This document shows positions 3,460 to 15,150 of a stretch of 20,857 nt of DNA, piece by piece; the stretch's first letter is position 1, and every line of letters starts with the position of its first letter. The DNA is taken from positions 1-20,857 of the IMG/VR virus record IMGVR_UViG_3300043410_001171; one strand, given 5' to 3'. The position numbers and the translations under genes were made by a program. The notes below the pieces were generated by a model that was given only the letters and a program-made list of their open reading frames with translations, had not been told where the DNA came from and did no database searches. This DNA comes from a virus.

Positions 3460-5016
3460 ATGGAAATCTACAAAGACAAAGCGTTACTAGTTAACACCCG
3501 CCGTCCTGATAGGATTATTGAGAGCATCCCTAAAAGTAAGATAGCCAAGACATTCGATAACGGCATCTCTCAAGTAGTGGTTAACTGGGGGTTAGACGAA
3601 GTTCACAAATTAACAGCGATGCGTATCTATAGCGCACCTGCTCCCATCACTAAAGAATACTCGTGGCCTGGCGTACATAAGCCCTTCGAGCATCAGATTA
3701 CAACCGCACAGTTCTTAGCTGCTAATAAGCGAGCCTACTGCCTATCCGAAGCAGGTACAGGTAAGACCTCCGCTGTGATATGGGCATCAGACTATCTGAT
3801 GAACAAAGGGTTAGTTAAGCGTATGCTTGTGGTATGCCCCCTATCTATTATGCAGGCAGCTTGGCAGTCAGACTTCTTCAAGACAGCGATGCACAGAACA
3901 ATAGGTATAGCTCATGGTACGGCTGATAAGCGTAAGCAGATTGTCAACGGCAACTACGATGTAGTCATCATCAACTATGACGGCATCGAGATCGTAGAGA
4001 AAGAGATTAAGGCAGGGAACTTCGACCTGATCGTGGTGGACGAAGCGAACTATGTTAAGACTACTACCACTAGACGTTGGAAAGCCCTTAACCGTATCTT
4101 AACCCCTGACACATGGCTATGGATGATGACAGGTACACCTGCTTCACAATCCCCAGTCGATGCTTACGGCTTAGCCAAACTTGTTAACCCAGCATCTGTG
4201 CCTAAGTATGCAGGTACGTTCAAAGATATGGTGATGCAGAAGGTTAGCCAGTTCACATGGGTGCCTCGGTTCAACGCACAAGATATCGTATTTAAAACAC
4301 TACAACCCGCCATTCGCTACACTAAGGCGGACTGCCTAGACCTACCCGATGTGCTCTATCAAACACGCGAAGTGCCACTAACCCCACAGCAAGATAAGTA
4401 CTACAAGCAGCTCAAAAAGAACTTCTACATTGAAGCTGGTGGTGAAGATGTTACCGCAGTTAACGCTGGGGTTATGCTAACAAAACTCTTGCAAGTGTCA
4501 GCAGGTAGTATCTATTCAGATAAGGGTGATGTGGTGGAGTTTGACGTATCTAATCGCATGGCTGCACTCAAAGAGATTATCAACGAAGCTAGCCACAAGG
4601 TGCTCATCTTCTGCCCATTCAGACACAGTATGCTGAAGATTACAGAGGAGCTGAAGAAGTCAGGTATATCATCAGATGAGATACATGGCGACGTGAACAT
4701 GAACCAACGGACGCAAATCTTTAAACGCTTCCAAGAAACGCCTGACCCTCACGTGTTAGTCATCCAACCTCAAGCAGCGTCACATGGTGTCACACTTCAC
4801 GCAGCGAACGTAGTTGTGTTTTGGAGTCCAGTGATGTCGGTGGAAACATACATACAATGCTGTGCTCGGGTTGATCGCGCTGGTCAGCGAAACCCGATGA
4901 CCGTAGTTCACCTACAAGGTTCACCTGTCGAGAAAAAAATTTACAACATGTTGCAAAATAAAATTGATACGCATCACAAGCTGGTCGATTTGTATCGAGA
5001 AGAGATTGAAGCTTGA
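3460..5016 (+). CDS. SNF2-type superfamily 2 DNA helicase / translocase, 518 aa
   Basis: The ATG at 3460 is forced, because an in-frame TAA lies ten bases upstream and the next Met is at residue 54. No Shine-Dalgarno site precedes it. After an N-terminal extension of about 70 residues come motif Q/I (FEHQITTAQF, then Walker A SEAGTGKT at 96-103), motif Ia (MLVVCPLSIM), motif II DEAN at 194-197, motif III TGTPAS at 224-229, helicase domain 2 (KVLIFCPFRHSM), motif V (SHGVTLHAAN, 441-450) and motif VI (QCCARVDRAGQ, 466-476). The order and the R-x-D-R-x-G-Q signature are those of SNF2-like proteins. A DNA-stimulated ATPase acting in replication, recombination or remodelling of protein-DNA complexes is likely. 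Its neighbours are replication genes, and the -35 of the next promoter overlaps its stop codon. Confidence 0.9.
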   Translation: MEIYKDKALLVNTRRPDRIIESIPKSKIAKTFDNGISQVVVNWGLDEVHKLTAMRIYSAPAPITKEYSWPGVHKPFEHQITTAQFLAANKRAYCLSEAGTGKTSAVIWASDYLMNKGLVKRMLVVCPLSIMQAAWQSDFFKTAMHRTIGIAHGTADKRKQIVNGNYDVVIINYDGIEIVEKEIKAGNFDLIVVDEANYVKTTTTRRWKALNRILTPDTWLWMMTGTPASQSPVDAYGLAKLVNPASVPKYAGTFKDMVMQKVSQFTWVPRFNAQDIVFKTLQPAIRYTKADCLDLPDVLYQTREVPLTPQQDKYYKQLKKNFYIEAGGEDVTAVNAGVMLTKLLQVSAGSIYSDKGDVVEFDVSNRMAALKEIINEASHKVLIFCPFRHSMLKITEELKKSGISSDEIHGDVNMNQRTQIFKRFQETPDPHVLVIQPQAASHGVTLHAANVVVFWSPVMSVETYIQCCARVDRAGQRNPMTVVHLQGSPVEKKIYNMLQNKIDTHHKLVDLYREEIEA

Positions 5017-5692: not shown

Positions 5693-6655
5693 ATGAGTAC
5701 AGAATTAGATATTTTCCAACAAGGCACAGCCGTTGCGACTACAGGCCCACGTGATGATGGCTTTACAAGTAACGTAGGTGGCTCAAGCATTACCTCACGT
5801 AGCATTGTTATTGTTAACAATAAGCTACGCGTAATGGTCAACGGTAAAGAGTTGATGAAGATTGAACAACCACACCTAGACGTGATCATCGTTAACTCAG
5901 CACCTACAGTTAACCGTATGTTCTACTCTGAAGGTTACGACCCGAAGGCAGCTAAGCGTTCACCACCTAAATGCTGGAGTCACGACAGTGCAGTTCCTGC
6001 GGCTGATGCACGTGAACCTCAAGGTACGAAGTGCGTAGACTGTAAACAAAACATTAAAGGCTCAGGTCAAAATGGTACGAAGGCATGTCGCTTCCACCGT
6101 TACATTGCGGTAGTGTTAGCAGATAACCCAACAGGTGATATCTACCGCGTTAAGTTGTCAGCGACTTCTGTGTTCGGTGATGGCACTAACGACCGCCGTC
6201 CCTTCCACGCTTATCGTGACTACCTCGTTGCTAACAACGAAGGTCTAGGTACAGTTGTGTCACGTATGATTGTAGGTGACGATAACTCTAATATTGGCTT
6301 CCGTCCTGTAGGTCGTTTGTCTGATGAGCAAGTAGCAGTCATCCGCAGCCGTTCACAAGAAGAAGACGCAGTACGTGCGATTACGATGTCTGTTGCAGCT
6401 GATCGTGATGAGAACGGTGAAGAGTTTGCACCAGCTTCTACTCCAGCACCTACTACACAAGGTTCAGTACCCCCATCAACACTAGCAGCAGGTACTACAA
6501 TCACTCCTACTCAAGAGCCAGCTGATGAGGACATTCCTGAACCAACAGTGCGTGCAGCTAAGCCAGCACCAACAACTGCAGCACCTACACCAGCCCCAGT
6601 TAAGGCTGACGGTGGTGAAGTAAGTTTGGATGACTTAGTAGCTGACTGGACATAA
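5693..6655 (+). CDS. Zinc-finger protein with acidic tail, possible ssDNA-binding protein, 320 aa
   Basis: ATG at 5693 follows CAGGAG with nine-base spacing. Residues 35-160 form the conserved domain: a beta-rich start (RSIVIVNNKLRVMVNGKE), then PPKCWSHDSAVPAAD with Cys94, TKCVDCKQN with Cys114 and Cys117, and KACRFHRY with Cys132, a four-cysteine zinc site, followed by strands (YIAVVLAD, YRVKLSATS). Residues 245-305 are a Pro/Thr/Ala-rich linker of low complexity. The protein ends in an acidic tip (GEVSLDDLVADWT), like the C-terminal tails of ssDNA-binding proteins that recruit partners. Placement between helicase and primase-helicase supports binding of single-stranded DNA during replication or recombination. 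The fold is not proven from sequence; an alternative is a recombination mediator. The domain pattern (CWS/CFS... C-x2-C ... C) is familiar from many phages without an assigned role. Confidence 0.65.
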   Translation: MSTELDIFQQGTAVATTGPRDDGFTSNVGGSSITSRSIVIVNNKLRVMVNGKELMKIEQPHLDVIIVNSAPTVNRMFYSEGYDPKAAKRSPPKCWSHDSAVPAADAREPQGTKCVDCKQNIKGSGQNGTKACRFHRYIAVVLADNPTGDIYRVKLSATSVFGDGTNDRRPFHAYRDYLVANNEGLGTVVSRMIVGDDNSNIGFRPVGRLSDEQVAVIRSRSQEEDAVRAITMSVAADRDENGEEFAPASTPAPTTQGSVPPSTLAAGTTITPTQEPADEDIPEPTVRAAKPAPTTAAPTPAPVKADGGEVSLDDLVADWT

Positions 6656-6665
6656 GGAGTGAGCG

Positions 6666-6899
6666 ATGAGAGGTTACTCACAAAGTATCATTGAAGCTAA
6701 CCAAAATGCTGCCCCTGGAATGGGGGTGGCACTAGGTGCTCTGTTGATTGCGCTTAAATACCCAGTTAGCCGAGCGGCAAAAGACCTTGAAGTTTCAAGA
6801 CAAACGGTCTATGATTGGATCTCTGGGAAAGCAATACCAACTCCAACAAAAAACCAGTTGATTACTGACTTAATAGATAAGTTAAGCCAATCAGAATAG
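6666..6899 (+). CDS. Cro/CI-like helix-turn-helix protein, 77 aa
   Basis: ATG at 6666 is preceded by TAAGGAG seven to eight bases upstream and lies ten bases after the previous stop. A helical segment (GVALGALLIALKYPV, residues 20-34) leads into a clear helix-turn-helix: VSRAAKDLEV then SRQTVYDWISGKAIPTP (34-60), followed by a C-terminal helix (KNQLITDLIDKL). The order matches small XRE-family phage proteins. It could be a repressor of the adjacent primase operon or an initiator-type DNA-binding protein, because it directly precedes the structured non-coding region at 6900-7023. Which of the two is inference. There is no lysogeny gene nearby, so a role as prophage repressor is not supported. 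Confidence 0.8.
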   Translation: MRGYSQSIIEANQNAAPGMGVALGALLIALKYPVSRAAKDLEVSRQTVYDWISGKAIPTPTKNQLITDLIDKLSQSE

Positions 6900-7023
6900 T
6901 AGTTTCGGGTGAAAGCGGATGCTAGGGATATACGACTCACGCCCATGTGGCGATGTTAAGTTGTCGCTAACAGGTAGGCCCTAGATGCAGCGAGTAGCCC
7001 AACCCTTTAACATGTGAGAGAAC
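6900..7023 (+). promoter_or_regulatory. Structured non-coding region before primase-helicase: leader RNA or origin candidate
   Basis: This 124-base gap is unusually long for the unit. CTAGGG (6922-6927) and CCCTAG (6979-6984) can close a domain that contains GCGAT/GTCGC (6950-6954 with 6963-6967) or, in competition, CGCC/GGCG (6940-6943 with 6949-6952). TTTC/GAAA (6903-6906 with 6911-6914) forms a small upstream hairpin. An 11-base stretch, ATACGACTCAC (6930-6940), equals the recognition part of the T7 promoter but lacks its TATAGGG. Two tiny ORFs (GTG 6909-6959, 16 aa; ATG 6919-6984, 21 aa) overlap it. No sigma-70 promoter or U-tailed hairpin is evident. The ribosome binding site of the next gene is weak (GAGAG). 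An RNA leader or a replication origin are both compatible. Confidence 0.4.
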
Positions 7024-9849
7024 ATGCAAACTTTAGAATTTCTACGGCACGTGTGGCCAACAGAAGGTGTTTATTGCATCGTTGGGAAAGACCAACAAAA
7101 CAATATCCAACCTAAATTCGTACATACTATTGAGCAAGCAGCGGAGGTTGCTCAACAGTTACTAGGTGATAACAGCGACGTGTATTTCGCATGCTCGACG
7201 TTTAATCAACCTACAGATCGTACAAAGGTTAACGCTAAACAAGAACGTGCGTTTTGGCTAGATATAGATTGTGGATACGACGAGAAGAAAGGTAAACACA
7301 AGGACTATAAAGACAAAGATGCTGCCCTTACAGCGCTGCGTTCATTCACAGATACAACAGGCTTACCTGAGCCTACGATTGTTGATTCAGGTCGTGGCAT
7401 CCACGTATATTGGACATTCACCGATCCAATAGCTAAAGAGCTATGGACTCCTGTAGCAGAAGGTCTCAAGTTCCTATGCGTTAAGCATGGTCTACGTGCT
7501 GATGGTGCATGTACTGCAGACGCTGCTCGTATCCTACGCGTACCTAATACCAAAAACTTTAAAGACCCTAGCAAGCCTTTAGACGTAGTTGTCCTCAACG
7601 AAGGATACCCTACACCTTTCGATGACTTAGCAGCACTTATCCCAATCCACTTAGGTGGCGAACGAATTAAGTCAGGTCACGAAGCTCACAAAATAGACGC
7701 AGATGGCGCTGTCTCATCATTTAAAAAGATTATGCAACGATGCATGTCAGGTGATGGCTGTGAACAACTTAAATACATAGCAACTAAACAAAAAGAAATT
7801 GACGAGCCACTATGGCGTTCAGGGTTATCCATCGCTCAATATTGTGAAGATCGTGGTGTAGCCATCCACAAGATATCATCTCAGCATCCTGAGTATTCAG
7901 CAGCAGCAACGGAAGCTAAGGCAGCTAGTATTCCTGCACCTCATACCTGTAATCAATTTGAAAGTTTACGTCCTGAGGGATGTAAGAACTGTAAGTTTAA
8001 GGGTTCGATAACATCGCCTATACAAATGGGTAAATATGTTCCTAGATCGATAGGATCAGACTTTATTGTTCAGGTTGAGAACAAAGAAACTGGTGAGGTT
8101 GAATCAAAAAACATCCCAGTATACCCATCCCCATATTTCCGAGGTAAGAACGGTGGTATATATAAATCGTTACCTGATAATGAAGATGACGGTATGCGTA
8201 TATATGATTATGACTTCTATCTAGTCGACCGATTGAATGATCCTGCAGTGGGCGACTGTGCATGGTTCAAACTACATCTACCTCAAGATGGTGTGCGTGA
8301 GTTTATTGCTCCTGTATCAAGCTTGATGAGCACAGAAAAAGCTCGTGACATTGTTAATAACATTGGCATATTTGAACGTGGTAAATCACTTGAAGGGATT
8401 ATTGAGTACATTCGAGTGTGTCTAAGTGAACAGCTAAAGAACAAGAAGGCTGCTCATATGCACAAGCAGTTTGGCTGGAATGAAAATAAGAGCATGATCA
8501 TCATAGGCAATCGTGAGATTAGTACATATGGTATTAACCACGTTCCTGTTTCAGAAGAGTTGAGCCAAGTAACTCCTACACTAACCAAGAAAGGTTCGTA
8601 TGATGAGTGGAAGAAGGCCATAGCGTTCTACGAGCGTCCAGGGATGGAACTTCGTGCATTTGGTTTCTTCTGTGGCTTTGGCTCTATGCTAATGCCATTG
8701 TTTGATTCTAGAGAAAAGTCAGCAGTAATTAACCTGTACAACCCTGAAGCAGGTCAAGGTAAAACATCTATCCTGCAGATGATGACTAGCATCTATGGCA
8801 ACCCTGATATTGAAGCTAAGCTAATTAACGTTTGGGGCGATACCGAGAACTCAATCATTAACCGATTTGGTTATATGAAGAACCTACCTGCAGCGGTAGA
8901 CGAGATGACTAACGTGAGCGCAGATGAACTACATCGCTTCCTCAAGTTTGTATCATCAGGTCGTGGTAAAAACCGTATGGGTAACGGAGCTAACAGAGAA
9001 CGAAACAATGATACTGTGTTTAACTTGATTTGTGTTGTATCAAGTAACACGGACTTCCGCACAGTGATGTTCTCACAGAAAGCTAAAGCATCAGGTGAGA
9101 TGGCTCGTTTCATTCAGCTACGTATTGAGAAAGACCACACATTAACTAAAGCTGAGATTGATAAACTAATGAGTATCATCTTTGATAATTATGGTCATGC
9201 AGGGGAACAGTATGGCCAGTACATACTACAAAACGTCGATAAGATTAAAAAAGATCTTGTAGCTATGCAAGTTAAACTAGATACCATGTTAGGTTTCAGA
9301 GGGGAAGAACGTAAGTACTCAACTAACTTAGCTGCAGTATTTTTAGGTGCTATCATCGCTAAGCGTTTAGGCATTCACAACATTGCTATTGAGCCTGTAT
9401 TGAAAGCAGTAGCTAAAGAGATTCGTGAGTTCATGGGCGTTATCAAGGAAAACAACTTTGATGCGATGGAGACATTGGGTAACTTCTTGGATGAGAACCT
9501 AGCACGTAACACACTAGTGATTAATGGTACGATAGATAAGAAAACTGGTTACACCGATGCTCCGATTATCAAGCCATCTAATGATCTAAAAGTTCGCTAT
9601 GAGCCTGATTTAAAAACACTTTATATCCCTTGCAATATTATCAAGAGTTATTTACACTCCGTGCAAGTCGAGTACAGCGATTTCGTACAAGGCTTACGAG
9701 CAGCAAATGTATTGCGTAACGATACAGGAGCAAACAAAGTAATGCATAAGGGATTAGAGATGAGTGGTCCATCAGTTAGATGTCTGTGGATCGACAGTTC
9801 TAAGTTTGATGTAGAAGTTCAATTGGATATACCACAACGTGTTGACTAA
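7024..9849 (+). CDS. Primase-helicase: AEP-like primase domain fused to DUF927-type helicase, 941 aa
   Basis: ATG at 7024 is chosen because an earlier ATG at 7012 is followed by TGA. Residues 1-200 resemble an archaeo-eukaryotic-type primase: FWLDIDCG with Asp80 and Asp82, SGRGIHVYW at 122-130 with His127, and DAARILRVPNTKNFK at 166-180. Cysteines at 309, 320 and 323 (TCNQF ... EGCKNCKFKG) form a zinc site typical of phage primases, followed by SPIQMGKY. The C-terminal half is DUF927/SF3-like: Walker A NPEAGQGKTS at 573-582, Walker B AAVDEMTN at 623-630, and sensor-like VVSSNTDF at 671-678 after the family's GRGKNRM element. The protein should unwind DNA and make primers at the phage fork. 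No DNA polymerase is in the window. It overlaps the next gene by 11 bases. Confidence 0.88.
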   Translation: MQTLEFLRHVWPTEGVYCIVGKDQQNNIQPKFVHTIEQAAEVAQQLLGDNSDVYFACSTFNQPTDRTKVNAKQERAFWLDIDCGYDEKKGKHKDYKDKDAALTALRSFTDTTGLPEPTIVDSGRGIHVYWTFTDPIAKELWTPVAEGLKFLCVKHGLRADGACTADAARILRVPNTKNFKDPSKPLDVVVLNEGYPTPFDDLAALIPIHLGGERIKSGHEAHKIDADGAVSSFKKIMQRCMSGDGCEQLKYIATKQKEIDEPLWRSGLSIAQYCEDRGVAIHKISSQHPEYSAAATEAKAASIPAPHTCNQFESLRPEGCKNCKFKGSITSPIQMGKYVPRSIGSDFIVQVENKETGEVESKNIPVYPSPYFRGKNGGIYKSLPDNEDDGMRIYDYDFYLVDRLNDPAVGDCAWFKLHLPQDGVREFIAPVSSLMSTEKARDIVNNIGIFERGKSLEGIIEYIRVCLSEQLKNKKAAHMHKQFGWNENKSMIIIGNREISTYGINHVPVSEELSQVTPTLTKKGSYDEWKKAIAFYERPGMELRAFGFFCGFGSMLMPLFDSREKSAVINLYNPEAGQGKTSILQMMTSIYGNPDIEAKLINVWGDTENSIINRFGYMKNLPAAVDEMTNVSADELHRFLKFVSSGRGKNRMGNGANRERNNDTVFNLICVVSSNTDFRTVMFSQKAKASGEMARFIQLRIEKDHTLTKAEIDKLMSIIFDNYGHAGEQYGQYILQNVDKIKKDLVAMQVKLDTMLGFRGEERKYSTNLAAVFLGAIIAKRLGIHNIAIEPVLKAVAKEIREFMGVIKENNFDAMETLGNFLDENLARNTLVINGTIDKKTGYTDAPIIKPSNDLKVRYEPDLKTLYIPCNIIKSYLHSVQVEYSDFVQGLRAANVLRNDTGANKVMHKGLEMSGPSVRCLWIDSSKFDVEVQLDIPQRVD

Positions 9850-10033
9850 CGGTACAGATTATCAAATAGATTGGCCTAACTTCAAGCCAGGCTCGTCTAT
9901 ATTTTTACCTGCTATAGATACGAAAGCTGCCGTTGATGCAGTGAAACGCGAAGCTAAACGCTTAGGGTTTCAATATGTCCTCAAGATTGTAGTTGAGGAC
10001 GGCATCAAGGGCGTTCGTGTTTGGCGTCTTTAA
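9839..10033 (+). CDS. Small conserved phage protein, 64 aa
   Basis: The gene starts at GTG (9839) or the adjacent TTG (9842), overlapping the primase-helicase by 11 bases without a clear ribosome binding site, so it is probably translated by coupling. The protein has W-x-x-F-K-P-G-S-S-I-F-L-P near residues 12-24, a helix (DAVKREAKRLGFQY) and an end of the form KIVVEDGIKGVRVWRL. This is a compact alpha/beta layout found in small proteins next to phage replication genes. The function is not known to me. It is the last gene of the + strand block; its stop shares bases with the stop of the opposing virion gene. Confidence 0.7.
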   Translation: MLTNGTDYQIDWPNFKPGSSIFLPAIDTKAAVDAVKREAKRLGFQYVLKIVVEDGIKGVRVWRL

Positions 10034-13000
10034 TCAGCGTATCTAGTTACGTCGCTGATATCTCGTTCGCGTTTCTCGTATTTAACGCCTGACGCACTGC
10101 GTTGGGCTTTATCTTTTCTACGTTGAGCGATTGAACGTTTGATAGACTCACCGTTAATTCTGCGACTAGGATGCTCGATATTGAACTCTCTAACTTGTTC
10201 AAGCGCTTCAGTAGGGTCTTCGCCATTTAATCTAGCAGTAGCTATGTCTTTAATGAGCTTGTTGCGTACATCATCAATTGCTTGAGTGATACGCTCTTTC
10301 TCATACATCGCTTGGTAGTATTCAGCTTCTTTAGTAGGTGTGAACCCTAACGCCTTGATCGCTTGATCCCATGCATTGAACTCGTCAGCTTCGATCGCTA
10401 CATTGCCTGAACGTGTTGTTAGACCTTCACTGCCTAGACGTTCAGCTTTCACTAATGAAGACATGAATTTAGGCAATACCTTCTCTAGGGCTTTTTGGTA
10501 ATCGCCTTCGCTACCTAGAATGAACGCGTCGCCTACACGTGATGCCATGCTTACTGGTGCTCCGCCTAAGTTAAACATAAACTCTGTCACTGCGTCTTTA
10601 CCTGTCGCAGCATCAGTGATGGCGCTTGAACGCATCATAGGGAATGGTAAGAACAAGTTCTCCATACTCATACTGCCTGAGTCTACACCCACCATAGCAG
10701 GTAGACCTTTCCAGAATACACGAGCGGTCTCATTACCGAACGTATCAGCTAGGGCATTACGTAGTTGAGTCTCTACATCACCGTCTTTATCGTCTTTGTC
10801 ACCGAACGCACCCATGAGGAATAATAGTGGAGCAGCTACTGGCACACCACGTATACCTGCCATGATCAACTGTGTACCCATGAGGTAGAAGAACGCACGT
10901 TTAGCTTCAGCATCACCACCCCAAGCATTCTTGAAGTTACGAGCTAGTAAGTAGATCATGCCTTGTTGGTATTTGCGGAACTGCATAGGGATACGGTTTA
11001 GACCACCCATGTGTCCTTGCTTCATGAAGTATGCTGCGTTTGTATCGCTGTAGTCTAGCTGTGTTAACTCAACAGCTTCCCGTGCAGCTTTAGTCGCTGC
11101 TTCTTCATTACCTGTTTTGTTCATCTCTAGGCGATAAGCTGCAAGTGCTGAAGATAAGCGGTTCATCAACTCAATGTTATGTGATGACCAATTGAACACT
11201 TTCCAGAACTTGATCGCTTTAGGACTCATGCCTTTAGTATAGACTTCAGTGTCCATGTTATTGGCAATATCTAGCTTGCCTAAGTCCTCAAGCATACGCA
11301 CCATCTTGAGTTCACCGCCTTCAAAAGCTTGTGAAAGGTCAGCATCTTTTAGGCTGAAGAACTTCCCACCACGACCACCTTTAACAACGTTCTTAGCATC
11401 TTTCCATGCACCAATCACTGCGCGGCTAGCGTTCTTCGCGCCATAGCGACCTGCTAGTTGAGGGATAGTAATTTGGAATGGCTGCGTCATATTCTGCAAT
11501 AGATATGATGGCGCAATACCCAAGTGATAGATCGAGCTAGCACCTGTTAACTTACTCAAGATAGGATGATGGTCGTATCTAGCATCTAGGTTCAAACGAG
11601 CACGAACGTTATTGTATACGTCACGAAGTTGCATGTCGTTCTTCGATTGGTTACGCATATCGATCAACGCTTTAGACATTGGCTTCATGAACCCCATACG
11701 TGATAGGTAGAACGAGTCACGCTCCATTGTCTCAGCGAACGCTTGTAGCATATTCTCTGTAGCACCAGCAATGTTACGACGTTTGATTTGACGTTGTAAC
11801 GCTGAGTTCTCAGGTAGTCCTGCAAGAACGCTATCAATCATCGCTTGGCGTAGTTGACGCATATCTTTAGGATCAATATCTAGATCAATCTCACGATCAA
11901 AGATCTTCTCAAGCTGGTCAATCGCACCAAACGAGTTTGCACGGATATTGTTCATGTACTCTTCTGACTTAGTCTCGCGTACATTCATCCCTTGACGTTT
12001 TAGTTTGTCAGCTTCTTTAGCTTGATCTGAACGTTTATCAAATGCAAATACTTGATAATGATCTTCGCTCTTCTCCATCTGACGCAAGCGCTCAATCAAG
12101 GCTTTACGCTCTGAACCTGATGCATTAGCTAGATCCTCACGAAGTGCACGAATCTCATCTGATTCCGCAACGACCAAGTATTCACCGAAACGCATCAATG
12201 GGAAGTATGGTCCACGCATTTCATTTAGTAACATTTCGTGCTCTTGGACAGCCTTCTCAATACGAGCGTTTATTTTTTCGGCTTCTTCTGGGGTTGCTTC
12301 TGCCAAGTCTTCAGCATAAGCCCCGCGTACCATGTCGTTATAAACTGTGCGGCGCAAGTTAAAGTTTTCTTGCAAGAGCGCCCTAGCTCTTTGATAGATC
12401 TGTTTAGCTTCTGGAGAGAGCGCGTTGTAGGCGTCGGACAGTTCTTCATATTTATCCCTCATGTCTTCAGTTAAGTGAGCATTAGGTTCGGACTCGAACT
12501 CTTCATCAGGATGGATCTTAGAGCGTGTAGCTTCAAGCATTAACTTGCCTAGCTTCTTATGCTCAGCAGAGTTAGAGAACGAGAACGCACCCCAATCCGA
12601 TAATAATGCGTGAGCTTTATTTTTTAGACGCTGCTGTGTCATTGTCATCTTATCGTTGAGGTCTGCATAGTTACGCAGAGCAGGCATAGCATTACCAAAC
12701 TGGTCAACCAATTGGTACATAGATAATAGTTTAGGTGTGAGCTTACGTAGTGCTGCGCCTAGATTTAGACGTGCATCAGATACGCGTGGGCTAACTAGAT
12801 CACGGAATATGTTATCACCTGTAGGTGTATCTGCACCTTCAACTGGAGCACTAGGCTCACGAAGCGCACGAGGTTCAGCAGGTTGTGCTTCTACCACTGG
12901 AGGCGCTTCAGGAGCAGGGGGAGCTTTAGCTTCGGTGTCCACTCTGTTCACTGCATCAGCATAAGCTTTATTTAGTTGGAAGTCGGTAATCTGTGAACCT

Positions 13001-15150
13001 GCTTCACCTAGTTCAGCACGTGCAGCATTGAGAGCATCAGTTTTAATTCGTGTGCCTCGTTTCACTATGTGATACATAATGTCAGCGAGTGCTGATAAGA
13101 ACTGTTGCAGTGTTACTTTTTCTTCAGGTGTGATGTTCTCTACACCACCAAATGTCTGACGAATAAATGCGCCAGCTGTATCTTTGGCAGCTTCGTAATT
13201 AACTTGGTCTTGATCAAACTCTTTTGCAGCTTGTAGACCTTCACGTTCAGCTTCTGGCATAACAGGTGCTTCACGGAAGCCAGCTTGTTCAGCTTTAGCT
13301 GCTTCAAGGTTAGCTTGTTTCTCAGCTGTACGAGCTTCTTCTTCAGCAGCACGTTGTTCAATGATACGTTGCTGACGTTCTTCAGGCGTAATACGTGGAA
13401 CCGCTGGTGCTTCTGGTTCTGCAATAACTTCTGTAGATTCAGGAGCTTGAGCTGCCTCTAGTGCAGCGTACTGTTCTCCTGTTCCTCCAAGAGGCACTCC
13501 AACATCAGCTCTAGTACTGTCCACTGGTGGAGCGACAGGTTCTTCAGCAACTGTGGCAACTCCTGCTCGTCCTCCCTGCTCATCAGTTCGAAGGCCAGCT
13601 CCACTTGCTCCCTGCTGAGCTGCAACTCTGGTAAGTTCATCTTGAGCCTCCTTAGCTTTATGTTCATCCATGAAGCGTTTAAACTTCTCAACTGCTTCAG
13701 TTTGTTTTGGGGTTAGTGAGCCTTTTTTCTCAATTACTTTTTCAAACAAATCAATCTTGCTATCCATAGGCATAGCAGGATCATTGATTGACTGTAGAGT
13801 TTTGAATGCTGCAGATCTAGGTTGGCTAAAGCCAAATGACTTAATCGTTGCATCATCTAACTCAAATGTAGGAGCAACCTGCATAGGCGCAGCTTCAGCG
13901 AATAAATCGCCTTGTGGAGATTCAGCTGCACGTTTAGCAGCGACTTCTTCTACTGTTGTTTCAGGAGCTAGATCTAACTCCATTTGTTCTTTTAATGGTT
14001 TACGAAGCTCAGCTTCTCTCGCTTGTAGTGCACGATCTTCAGCTAGTAGACGTTCTTGTTCTTCTCGTTGAGCCGTAGCAGCAATGTTGGCAATGCGGCT
14101 ACGTTCTTTATTGATAGCATCTAGTTCTAGTTGTTGCGCTTGTGCTTCGGCTTGTACCTTATCACGTGCTTGGCTTCGAGTAACAATATTACCCACACCG
14201 CCCAAGCCACCACCTAATACACCAGCAGCTGCAGCTGCCTCACCGTATTCACGGTATGCGTCTTCTGATGTTAAGTCTAAGCCAGCTTGTTTACGTTCAA
14301 GGATTTGTTGTGCCACTTCAGTAGGCATTTCAGATACAGCACCACGACCAGCGCCACGAGTTAGTGTGCCTGCTAATGAACGTTCAGCTGTTTTAGCTAA
14401 TTGATCTTCGGTAACTTTAGCAATAGGACGACCAATTACTTTAGCTACTACACCTGTACCTAATGTGAACATAGTAGCTGCTGTATCTAATGCAGCTTGG
14501 CCTGTAGCAGTGCTATACACTTCAGGAGTAACTAAAGGACCTTGCGTCTTTTCATCAATACGACGTTCGATGTTAGTGCCAGCGAATTGAGGTACGCCAC
14601 CAGCGATACCACCTATGATACCACCAACGATAGGACCAACTGGACCGGTAAGTGGTGAAGTAAGTGCACCTAAACGAGCACCAGTGAAAGCACCAGCGGC
14701 GGTAGGAGCCATGTATGGGAGTGAACGACCTAGTGCATCACGAGCTGCTTTATAAGTAGTACTAGCTGCTGCTCCTAAACCTTCTTTTTCATAGGCTTCA
14801 GGGATAGCTGCAAATGGAGTGTAGCCTACGTTGCGTTCTTGCTCCGCTGCTTTTTGTACGCCATAGGCTGCACGAATATCTTCTTCTGATTGGAACGGTG
14901 CTGCAACACCACGTTTAGTAGATTCATATGCACCAATAGCGCCTTCTTTAAGGCTAGGCAAGAAACCTTCTTTTACAGGAGCTGGTTTAACTTCAGCCAC
15001 AGGTTCCATTAGATGGGTAATAATCTCGTTATCGGTATACCCTTCTTTACGTGCACCTGCTACGTTAAACTTCTTTTTCTTACCTAAAAAGTCAGCAATC
15101 TCAGCTGGGCTATAACCTTCAGCTAAGGCTCCTTCGTAATCGAAAGCCAT
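10030..15150 (-). CDS. Giant virion/ejection protein with PLxRFG and LPD38-like regions, 1706 aa
   Basis: ATG at 15150 has AGGAG eight bases upstream. Residues 2-48 hold two copies of a short repeat (A-x-x-E-G-Y-S-P-A-E-I and A-R-K-E-G-Y-T-D-N-E-I). Gly/Ala-rich hydrophobic segments at about 145-190 and 305-325 could contact membranes. A charged coiled coil runs from about 327 to 385, followed by low-complexity Glu/Ala/Pro-rich linkers (about 500-660 and 740-780). Helical domains lead to PLMRFG at 984-989, the mark of PLxRFG-domain phage proteins. Near 1363-1450, LDYSDTNAAYF, IPMQFRKYQQG and a hydrophobic stretch resemble the large-polyvalent-protein domain LPD38. Such proteins are packed in the virion and ejected with the DNA. 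It is the last gene of the minus-strand virion operon. A lytic transglycosylase motif was not found. The exact function is inference. Confidence 0.8.
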   Translation of the reverse strand: MAFDYEGALAEGYSPAEIADFLGKKKKFNVAGARKEGYTDNEIITHLMEPVAEVKPAPVKEGFLPSLKEGAIGAYESTKRGVAAPFQSEEDIRAAYGVQKAAEQERNVGYTPFAAIPEAYEKEGLGAAASTTYKAARDALGRSLPYMAPTAAGAFTGARLGALTSPLTGPVGPIVGGIIGGIAGGVPQFAGTNIERRIDEKTQGPLVTPEVYSTATGQAALDTAATMFTLGTGVVAKVIGRPIAKVTEDQLAKTAERSLAGTLTRGAGRGAVSEMPTEVAQQILERKQAGLDLTSEDAYREYGEAAAAAGVLGGGLGGVGNIVTRSQARDKVQAEAQAQQLELDAINKERSRIANIAATAQREEQERLLAEDRALQAREAELRKPLKEQMELDLAPETTVEEVAAKRAAESPQGDLFAEAAPMQVAPTFELDDATIKSFGFSQPRSAAFKTLQSINDPAMPMDSKIDLFEKVIEKKGSLTPKQTEAVEKFKRFMDEHKAKEAQDELTRVAAQQGASGAGLRTDEQGGRAGVATVAEEPVAPPVDSTRADVGVPLGGTGEQYAALEAAQAPESTEVIAEPEAPAVPRITPEERQQRIIEQRAAEEEARTAEKQANLEAAKAEQAGFREAPVMPEAEREGLQAAKEFDQDQVNYEAAKDTAGAFIRQTFGGVENITPEEKVTLQQFLSALADIMYHIVKRGTRIKTDALNAARAELGEAGSQITDFQLNKAYADAVNRVDTEAKAPPAPEAPPVVEAQPAEPRALREPSAPVEGADTPTGDNIFRDLVSPRVSDARLNLGAALRKLTPKLLSMYQLVDQFGNAMPALRNYADLNDKMTMTQQRLKNKAHALLSDWGAFSFSNSAEHKKLGKLMLEATRSKIHPDEEFESEPNAHLTEDMRDKYEELSDAYNALSPEAKQIYQRARALLQENFNLRRTVYNDMVRGAYAEDLAEATPEEAEKINARIEKAVQEHEMLLNEMRGPYFPLMRFGEYLVVAESDEIRALREDLANASGSERKALIERLRQMEKSEDHYQVFAFDKRSDQAKEADKLKRQGMNVRETKSEEYMNNIRANSFGAIDQLEKIFDREIDLDIDPKDMRQLRQAMIDSVLAGLPENSALQRQIKRRNIAGATENMLQAFAETMERDSFYLSRMGFMKPMSKALIDMRNQSKNDMQLRDVYNNVRARLNLDARYDHHPILSKLTGASSIYHLGIAPSYLLQNMTQPFQITIPQLAGRYGAKNASRAVIGAWKDAKNVVKGGRGGKFFSLKDADLSQAFEGGELKMVRMLEDLGKLDIANNMDTEVYTKGMSPKAIKFWKVFNWSSHNIELMNRLSSALAAYRLEMNKTGNEEAATKAAREAVELTQLDYSDTNAAYFMKQGHMGGLNRIPMQFRKYQQGMIYLLARNFKNAWGGDAEAKRAFFYLMGTQLIMAGIRGVPVAAPLLFLMGAFGDKDDKDGDVETQLRNALADTFGNETARVFWKGLPAMVGVDSGSMSMENLFLPFPMMRSSAITDAATGKDAVTEFMFNLGGAPVSMASRVGDAFILGSEGDYQKALEKVLPKFMSSLVKAERLGSEGLTTRSGNVAIEADEFNAWDQAIKALGFTPTKEAEYYQAMYEKERITQAIDDVRNKLIKDIATARLNGEDPTEALEQVREFNIEHPSRRINGESIKRSIAQRRKDKAQRSASGVKYEKRERDISDVTRYAD
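10033..10059. other. Stem-loop at the convergent gene junction
   Basis: ATCAGCG (10033-10039) and CGCTGAT (10053-10059) form a perfect 7-bp stem with a 13-base loop, right where the + and - strand gene blocks meet. Neither strand has a T-run after the stem, so it is not a standard intrinsic terminator. It lies inside the 3' end of the 1706-aa gene and could slow or stop polymerases from both sides, or be incidental. Confidence 0.25.

Follow-up and report, generated by a model that had tools for sequence, protein, structure and literature searches.

The window analyzed here is the whole of positions 1-20,857 of IMG/VR record IMGVR_UViG_3300043410_001171, a stretch of 20,857 nucleotides. A gene for a small helix-turn-helix protein (6666-6899, plus strand, TAG stop codon at 6897-6899) is followed on the same strand by the gene of a DUF927 primase-helicase (7024-9849), and the two are separated by a gap of 124 bases (6900-7023), as an earlier note on this DNA had stated. 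Upstream, the gene at 5693-6655 encodes a phrog_27714 protein with an acidic C-terminal tail, a gene that lies upstream of the element described here in many phages. A fold search of this protein was aimed at a ssDNA-binding fold. The predicted model (pLDDT 66) weakly resembled uncharacterised phage proteins and, with an E of 0.013, the recombination directionality factor of PhiC31. Positions 10030-15150 encode a polyvalent protein of 1706 residues, which has an LPD39 domain and similarity to DarB-like antirestriction proteins.

The gap contains a hairpin element (6907-7000, plus strand) that comprises a conserved base and an exchangeable tip. The outermost helix, P1, is formed by GGGT (6907-6910) and GCCC (6997-7000) with one U-G pair and starts 7 nt behind the stop codon of the helix-turn-helix gene. 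A first internal loop with the strands GAAA (6911-6914) and GAGTA (6992-6996) connects it to the short helix P2 (GC at 6915-6916 paired with GC at 6990-6991). The second internal loop is built up from GGATG (6917-6921) and ATGCA (6985-6989; family consensus ACGCA or TGCA) and leads to helix P3 (CTAGGG, 6922-6927, with CCCTAG, 6979-6984), on which an apical domain of 51 nt (6928-6978) is mounted. The order of parts is P1 – GAAA/GAGTA loop – P2 – GGATG/AYGCA loop – P3 – variable tip. The window thus has the features of the family represented by our covariance model R1 (see below), namely complementary P1 and P3 strands and both internal loops. GAA and AGUA strands next to a Watson-Crick helix are the hallmark of bulged-G (sarcin-ricin/loop E) modules in RNA, and the first internal loop carries this signature at the level of sequence. 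GAAA is constant in the family, which was, however, partly selected for GAAA.

The helices of the earlier note did not include P1. Its CTAGGG/CCCTAG arms are those of P3, with exactly 51 bases between them, and its two inner hairpins, GCGAT (6950-6954)/GTCGC (6963-6967) and CGCC (6940-6943)/GGCG (6949-6952), can both be drawn within the apical domain, overlap and are mutually exclusive as described. A further hairpin proposed there, TTTC (6903-6906)/GAAA (6911-6914), can pair but finds no support in the comparison, because GAAA is the conserved loop strand opposite GAGTA (6992-6996), and TTTC is replaced by other sequences in relatives. The description of the region as conserved-looking holds for the base of the hairpin and not for its interior.

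Folding energies did not distinguish the region from chance, neither for the gap compared with dinucleotide shuffles (z = +0.20) nor for the element alone (z = -0.31). ViennaRNA folds of other family members resulted in the same P1, P2 and P3. A search of the window against Rfam 15 at the gathering score gave zero matches, and a permissive Rfam search of the gap gave sub-threshold matches only, none of them credible. ARAGORN predicted no tRNA, and no terminator-like site was found in the gap. A candidate pseudoknot, ATGTTAA (6953-6959)/TTAACAT (7007-7013), was dropped; one of its strands lies in the window-specific tip and it had no comparative support.

A separate hairpin, CATGT-GAGAGA-ACATG (7011-7026, plus strand), is located at the start of the primase gene. 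Its loop contains a Shine-Dalgarno-like GAGAG, and the ATG start codon (7024-7026) falls in its 3' arm. Relatives have CATTGT/ACAATG or CATTG/CAATG at this position, a compensating change of length, and the folding energy corresponds to a z of about -3.4.

Other structures occupy the place upstream of the primase gene in further relatives. The more distant clade (L148-L154, L155, L157) has a different element, ACGGCA-CCGCTATC-TGCCGT, whose loop GCTATC is complementary to a downstream GATAGC in a pseudoknot-like manner; L155 and L157 show the compensatory ACGGTA/TACCG in place of ACGGCA/TGCCGT. Among relatives with a primase identity of 73%, five loci (L005, L006, L007, L009, L011) carry a minimal GGGGG-GAG-ACC-ATGA-GGT-AGTA-CCCCC hairpin at the same place, and two (L004 and L008) a GGGGCG/CGCCCC hairpin without the loop signature.

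Relatives of the element and covariation

Among 12 loci found through the primase, sequence and length of the interior were highly variable, and the terminal G-run and C-run as well as the start region were kept. The decisive comparison set comprised 60 loci collected via the primase alignment. The window and its relatives L168, L170 and L186 share GAAAGCGGATG ... AYGCAGCGAGTA around a covarying helix, which reads CTAGGG/CCCTAG in the window, CCATGG/CCATGG in L186, CTGTG/CACAG in L170 and TTAG/CTAA in L168.

The pattern GGGGGAAAR-N-RAGTACCCCACC was scanned over 2.9 million viral contigs in two length ranges. It matched at least 120 contigs per range, compared with a handful expected by chance according to our own estimate. 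The matches listed contain 184 distinct sequences, nearly all of them in gene junctions. The canonical form of the family is GGGGGAAAGCGGATGC-[tip]-GACGCAGCGAGTACCCCACC; its shortest members measure 34-41 nt, the tip being a small loop, and there is hardly any tip in members of 38-43 nt. Overall we collected at least 348 distinct copies. The sequence TTTCGGGTGAAAGC alone occurred in 118 contigs, which a rough count led us to take as chance matches, and this set was reused as a negative control.

Covariance model R1 was built from 38 training sequences, from which the window, L168, L170 and L186 had been left out. Its match in the window spans 6899-7010 and scores 42.6 bits (E 6.3e-10). The model gave 52 matches in 74 related loci, and on the 577 kb of unrelated viral loci that served as negative control nothing was found at E ≤ 1. 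Of 30 whole viral records 27 were matched, essentially once each, with one extra weak partial match in record G006. Of the other three, two have the short variant seen in relatives of the window, and the third is from the more distant primase clade.

Since the first scans held P1 fixed, this helix was analyzed separately in sequences from two scans with GAAAGCGGATGC and GCAGCGAGTA fixed, in which P1 had to differ from GGGG and no sequence was prescribed for its 3' strand. Among the matches listed, 136 of 157 distinct sequences form four standard pairs in P1 (114 with Watson-Crick pairs throughout), compared with a mean of 23.7 and a maximum of 38 of 157 for shuffled partners (2000 trials), a shuffling that takes no account of relatedness. 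Every P1 position shows at least four pair types. The helices found include GGCC/GGCC, GAGG/CCTC, GGGC/GCCC, TTGG/CCAA and the window's GGGT/GCCC (n = 6), and 27 of 603 P1 pairs are G-U. For P3, at least four consecutive pairs are present in 131 of the 157 sequences (shuffled mean 50, maximum 68), and the first P3 pair occurs in five standard types across 76 non-redundant canonical sequences. The pair changes are largely independent, because the flanks and neighboring genes of many members are unrelated.

The earlier note had called for covariation in relatives and had named uncompensated changes of the paired bases as evidence to the contrary. P1 and P3 covary in the family, and uncompensated changes did not occur for either helix when the family was tested. 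Covariation and the match of an independently trained model bear out the proposal of a structured region, so that a genuine structured element inside the gap is strongly supported by the sequence comparison. We regard the structure as nearly certain; the gap would then hold one of many copies of a probable RNA element that is widespread in phages, rather than an isolated origin or switch.

The family is without an entry in Rfam 15, against which ten member loci gave zero matches at the gathering score. Our literature search, which covered mainly open-access work, found no description of the element. Copies are present in the records of the uncultivated Manatee Spring phages MW202462 and MW202520. 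A blastn search with the canonical element against cultured phages returned nothing. The element is almost absent from cellular genomes: the strict pattern occurred in only two MAG contigs among 84,980 cellular genomes, and R1, run on 300 genomes of the order to which the beta-proteobacterial MAG belongs, matched that MAG only.

Two copies, one in Bordetella avium phage vB_BaM-IFTN6 (L619, 9611-9665) and one in L458 (11379-11440), keep the core loops, and their P1 strands are not evidently complementary. Given these copies, the core itself may be the part that is recognized.

Position in the genome

The element lies on the coding strand and is usually single in a genome. P1 starts 5-7 nt past a same-strand stop codon, or mostly 5-9 nt past it in the set with free P1, and ends about 17-22 nt ahead of the next start codon (23 nt in the window). 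A same-strand gene ends just 5' of the element in 116 cases, compared with 6 in which the sole adjoining gene lies 3' of it on the opposite strand; the corresponding numbers for the set with free P1 are 85 and 8. Tandem pairs with differing P1 were found at eight loci (L174, L209, L214, L222, L235, L298, L309, L314).

The upstream genes belong to many families. Where their products can be recognized, these are most often ssDNA-binding or annealing proteins, which come from several unrelated families (PHROGs 7364, 18154, 6015, 378 and 112; Enc34-type, SSB, RecT and ERF). The single family with the most members is phrog_27714, which includes the window gene at 5693-6655. Many upstream genes do not encode ssDNA-binding proteins. 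The genes downstream include those of DUF927 primases, DNA polymerases and MazG-like proteins and are unrelated between members.

This neighborhood bears on the suggestion of the earlier note that the gap is a replication origin, or in a related form an initiation hairpin in ssDNA. The usually single copy and the frequent proximity of ssDNA-binding, primase or polymerase genes are what an origin would lead one to expect. A check of GC skew on 13 records, however, revealed no consistent coincidence of the extremes with the element, nor do they coincide in the window. Moreover, the orientation of the element follows the genes and their transcription, the same base adjoins replication proteins of unrelated families, and the bulged-G signature together with the G-U pairs points to RNA. 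We consider an origin very improbable, the least probable of the readings weighed here.

The other suggestion of the earlier note was an RNA switch for the primase, a leader or riboswitch that would adjust translation in response to a ligand or protein sensed by the hairpin. Its intergenic location ahead of a start codon is in line with such a role, as is the second conserved hairpin (7011-7026), which buries the primase start codon in the lineage of the window. RNA control is, furthermore, known in P4-type and other phage replication operons. Against it, the same base precedes unrelated genes that form no related regulon, and the Shine-Dalgarno region is located outside the hairpin. Members of 38-43 nt have almost no tip, and in others tips are replaced wholesale, which leaves no constant core for binding a ligand. 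In our view this explanation is improbable.

A smaller class of copies (L226, L269, L327, L330, L333, L409, L417) is promoter-proximal. The order of parts in this class is a TATAAT-like box, a palindrome containing CTTCACGTG and then the element; L226 and L269 have extra G-rich/C-rich hairpins ending in CCCCACC. The location just downstream of such boxes and the single copy would suit an RNA that is read by RNA polymerase and controls transcription as a put-like antiterminator or an attenuator, instead of acting on the stability of the mRNA. Comparable junctions of cultured phages also have plain, terminator-like hairpins: in coliphage Bas82 and Salmonella phage Sasha one separates the gene of the ssDNA-binding protein from that of the polymerase, with a terminator annotation in Sasha, and Pseudomonas phage Rollin has one after its relative of the window gene at 5693-6655. 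On the other hand, among the matches listed only 77 of the 348 elements have at least five T in the next 8 nt, and most elements are not intrinsic terminators, because few carry a 3' T-tract. Transcription control of this kind seems to us as improbable as the leader.

Taken together, an origin, an intrinsic terminator and a riboswitch fit less well than a cis-acting RNA at gene junctions, which the sequence data suggest as the most likely reading.

Exchange of the tip

We compared 50 pairs of loci in which both flanks are similar. The arms are 97% identical on average and the interior 71%; in about 30 of the 50 pairs the interiors have identities of 0.37-0.68 by global alignment, which is near the level of unrelated short sequences. 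At least two unrelated interiors occur in 32 of 48 flank clusters with several members. The clearest pair is L408 (sample 3300008448) and L236 (sample 3300008107), with 22 differences in an alignment of 6.7 kb, all 22 of them inside the tip. Elsewhere in the region that the two share, L236 lacks three stretches of ~100-120 nt near positions 3771, 6454 and 7591 within otherwise identical coding DNA, possibly as a result of assembly faults. Among the near kin of the window, L168 and L186 are 96% identical over 3.4 kb and have unrelated tips.

Conversely, seven interiors of at least 20 nt are identical across two or more unrelated flanking contexts, some of them with different P1. The tip CTGACCAGTTAGCTGAAATGCAAAGGCAG was found in 12 contigs from 12 different metagenomes with differing flanks. 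The recurrence of one tip in that many metagenomes makes assembly chimerism an unlikely source of shared tips. Many tips are singletons; the others group into recurring families, each marked by a particular motif, and no relative of the window's own tip was found in the collected set. On these comparisons it is very probable that the tip is wholly exchanged between otherwise identical viruses.

A site of recombination or a small mobile element similar to integron attC sites or REP hairpins, with the constant arms as substrate and the tip as cargo, would also fit the precise replacement of tips, the sharing of identical tips between unrelated flanks and between copies that differ in P1, and the tandem copies. 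The element is, however, usually single, with its orientation and its offset of 5-9 nt from stop codons fixed, and no enzyme gene common to the members was seen. The supposed cargo is non-coding, with a length between a few nt and about 80 nt. With regard to attC, the flank profile of 157 members (3' consensus CCACCTTT) is without a GTT box. We rate a mobile site as quite unlikely, below the leader and transcription control and slightly above the origin.

Proposed function and known systems

Based on the conserved base, its position and the exchange of tips we propose the following mode of action for a cis-acting RNA. The element would act within the mRNA, since its orientation and spacing track translation signals, its first loop resembles an RNA module and wobble pairs occur. 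Its base is probably bound by a factor shared among many host bacteria, because phages with unrelated neighboring proteins keep it. In this way the element could mark the junction between the following gene and the gene upstream, whose product is often an abundant protein that binds ssDNA. The transcript might be protected or stabilized, processed, or partly blocked or attenuated at this point, so that the two genes would be expressed at different levels. The plain hairpins at comparable junctions of the cultured relatives Bas82, Sasha and Rollin are in line with this reading as well. The tip would be a replaceable module, swapped via recombination within the constant arms, and the neighboring annealing proteins could assist in this exchange. 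Its frequency suggests selection for novelty or diversity.

This combined proposal of a cis-acting mRNA element with a factor-held base, a junction-marking role and a replaceable tip is our best explanation, with belief and doubt about evenly balanced; a functional verdict on the element is given with slightly more doubt than belief. Several observations count against the proposal: some copies (L327, L330, L409, L417) are promoter-proximal leaders, P1 is not evidently paired in the copies of IFTN6 and L458, and many upstream genes encode other than ssDNA-binding proteins. A mere stabilizer, moreover, needs no such conserved base and leaves the exchange of tips unexplained.

A more far-reaching form of the proposal would be an RNA device in which a constant dock binds the factor and an interchangeable tip sets the specificity, a tip that is traded by recombination in the arms and rewarded when rare, for example in superinfection or incompatibility typing, as a decoy against RNA-targeting host defense, or as a specificity loop in antisense recognition. 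We put it forward tentatively and think it rather doubtful. If true, lytic phages would possess an RNA cassette that confers specificity and recombines. Environmental phages commonly carry the element, and its conserved base implies a host factor common to phages of unrelated lineages, which the RNA could be used to fish out. It is unusual for a non-coding element to evolve in such a way that its tip is cleanly replaced while the rest of the genome stays identical. This pattern suggests recombination with diversifying selection and poses a directly testable question in phage RNA biology.

Several known systems share single aspects with the element. The bulged-G module has the same GAA and AGUA loop strands beside a Watson-Crick helix; it is found in many RNAs and defines no family, and the likeness is one of sequence. 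P4/c4-type phage immunity RNAs (c4 is RF01695) are likewise short structured RNAs in replication or immunity regions, but neither the window nor the ten member loci gave an Rfam match at the gathering score. The terminator-like hairpin of Sasha and Bas82 has the same location at the junction of an ssDNA-binding and a DNA polymerase gene and differs in being a plain GC hairpin without conserved internal loops or exchangeable tip. Integron attC sites fold with conserved arms and a variable terminal structure, as the phage element does, and have RYYYAAC and GTTRRRY boxes at their ends; the phage element has no GTT/AAC box pair, integrase or gene-cassette array. The STAXI motif is a pseudoknot in two or three repeats with frequent UUCG loops; the authors who described it considered a role in connection with ssDNA (Weinberg et al. 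2010, PMC2864571). The phage element, in contrast, consists of one long hairpin, has two conserved internal loops and lacks the tandem pseudoknots with UUCG loops. Both are structured intergenic elements near genes of ssDNA-binding and other DNA-manipulating proteins, and by this neighborhood STAXI is the nearest named system.
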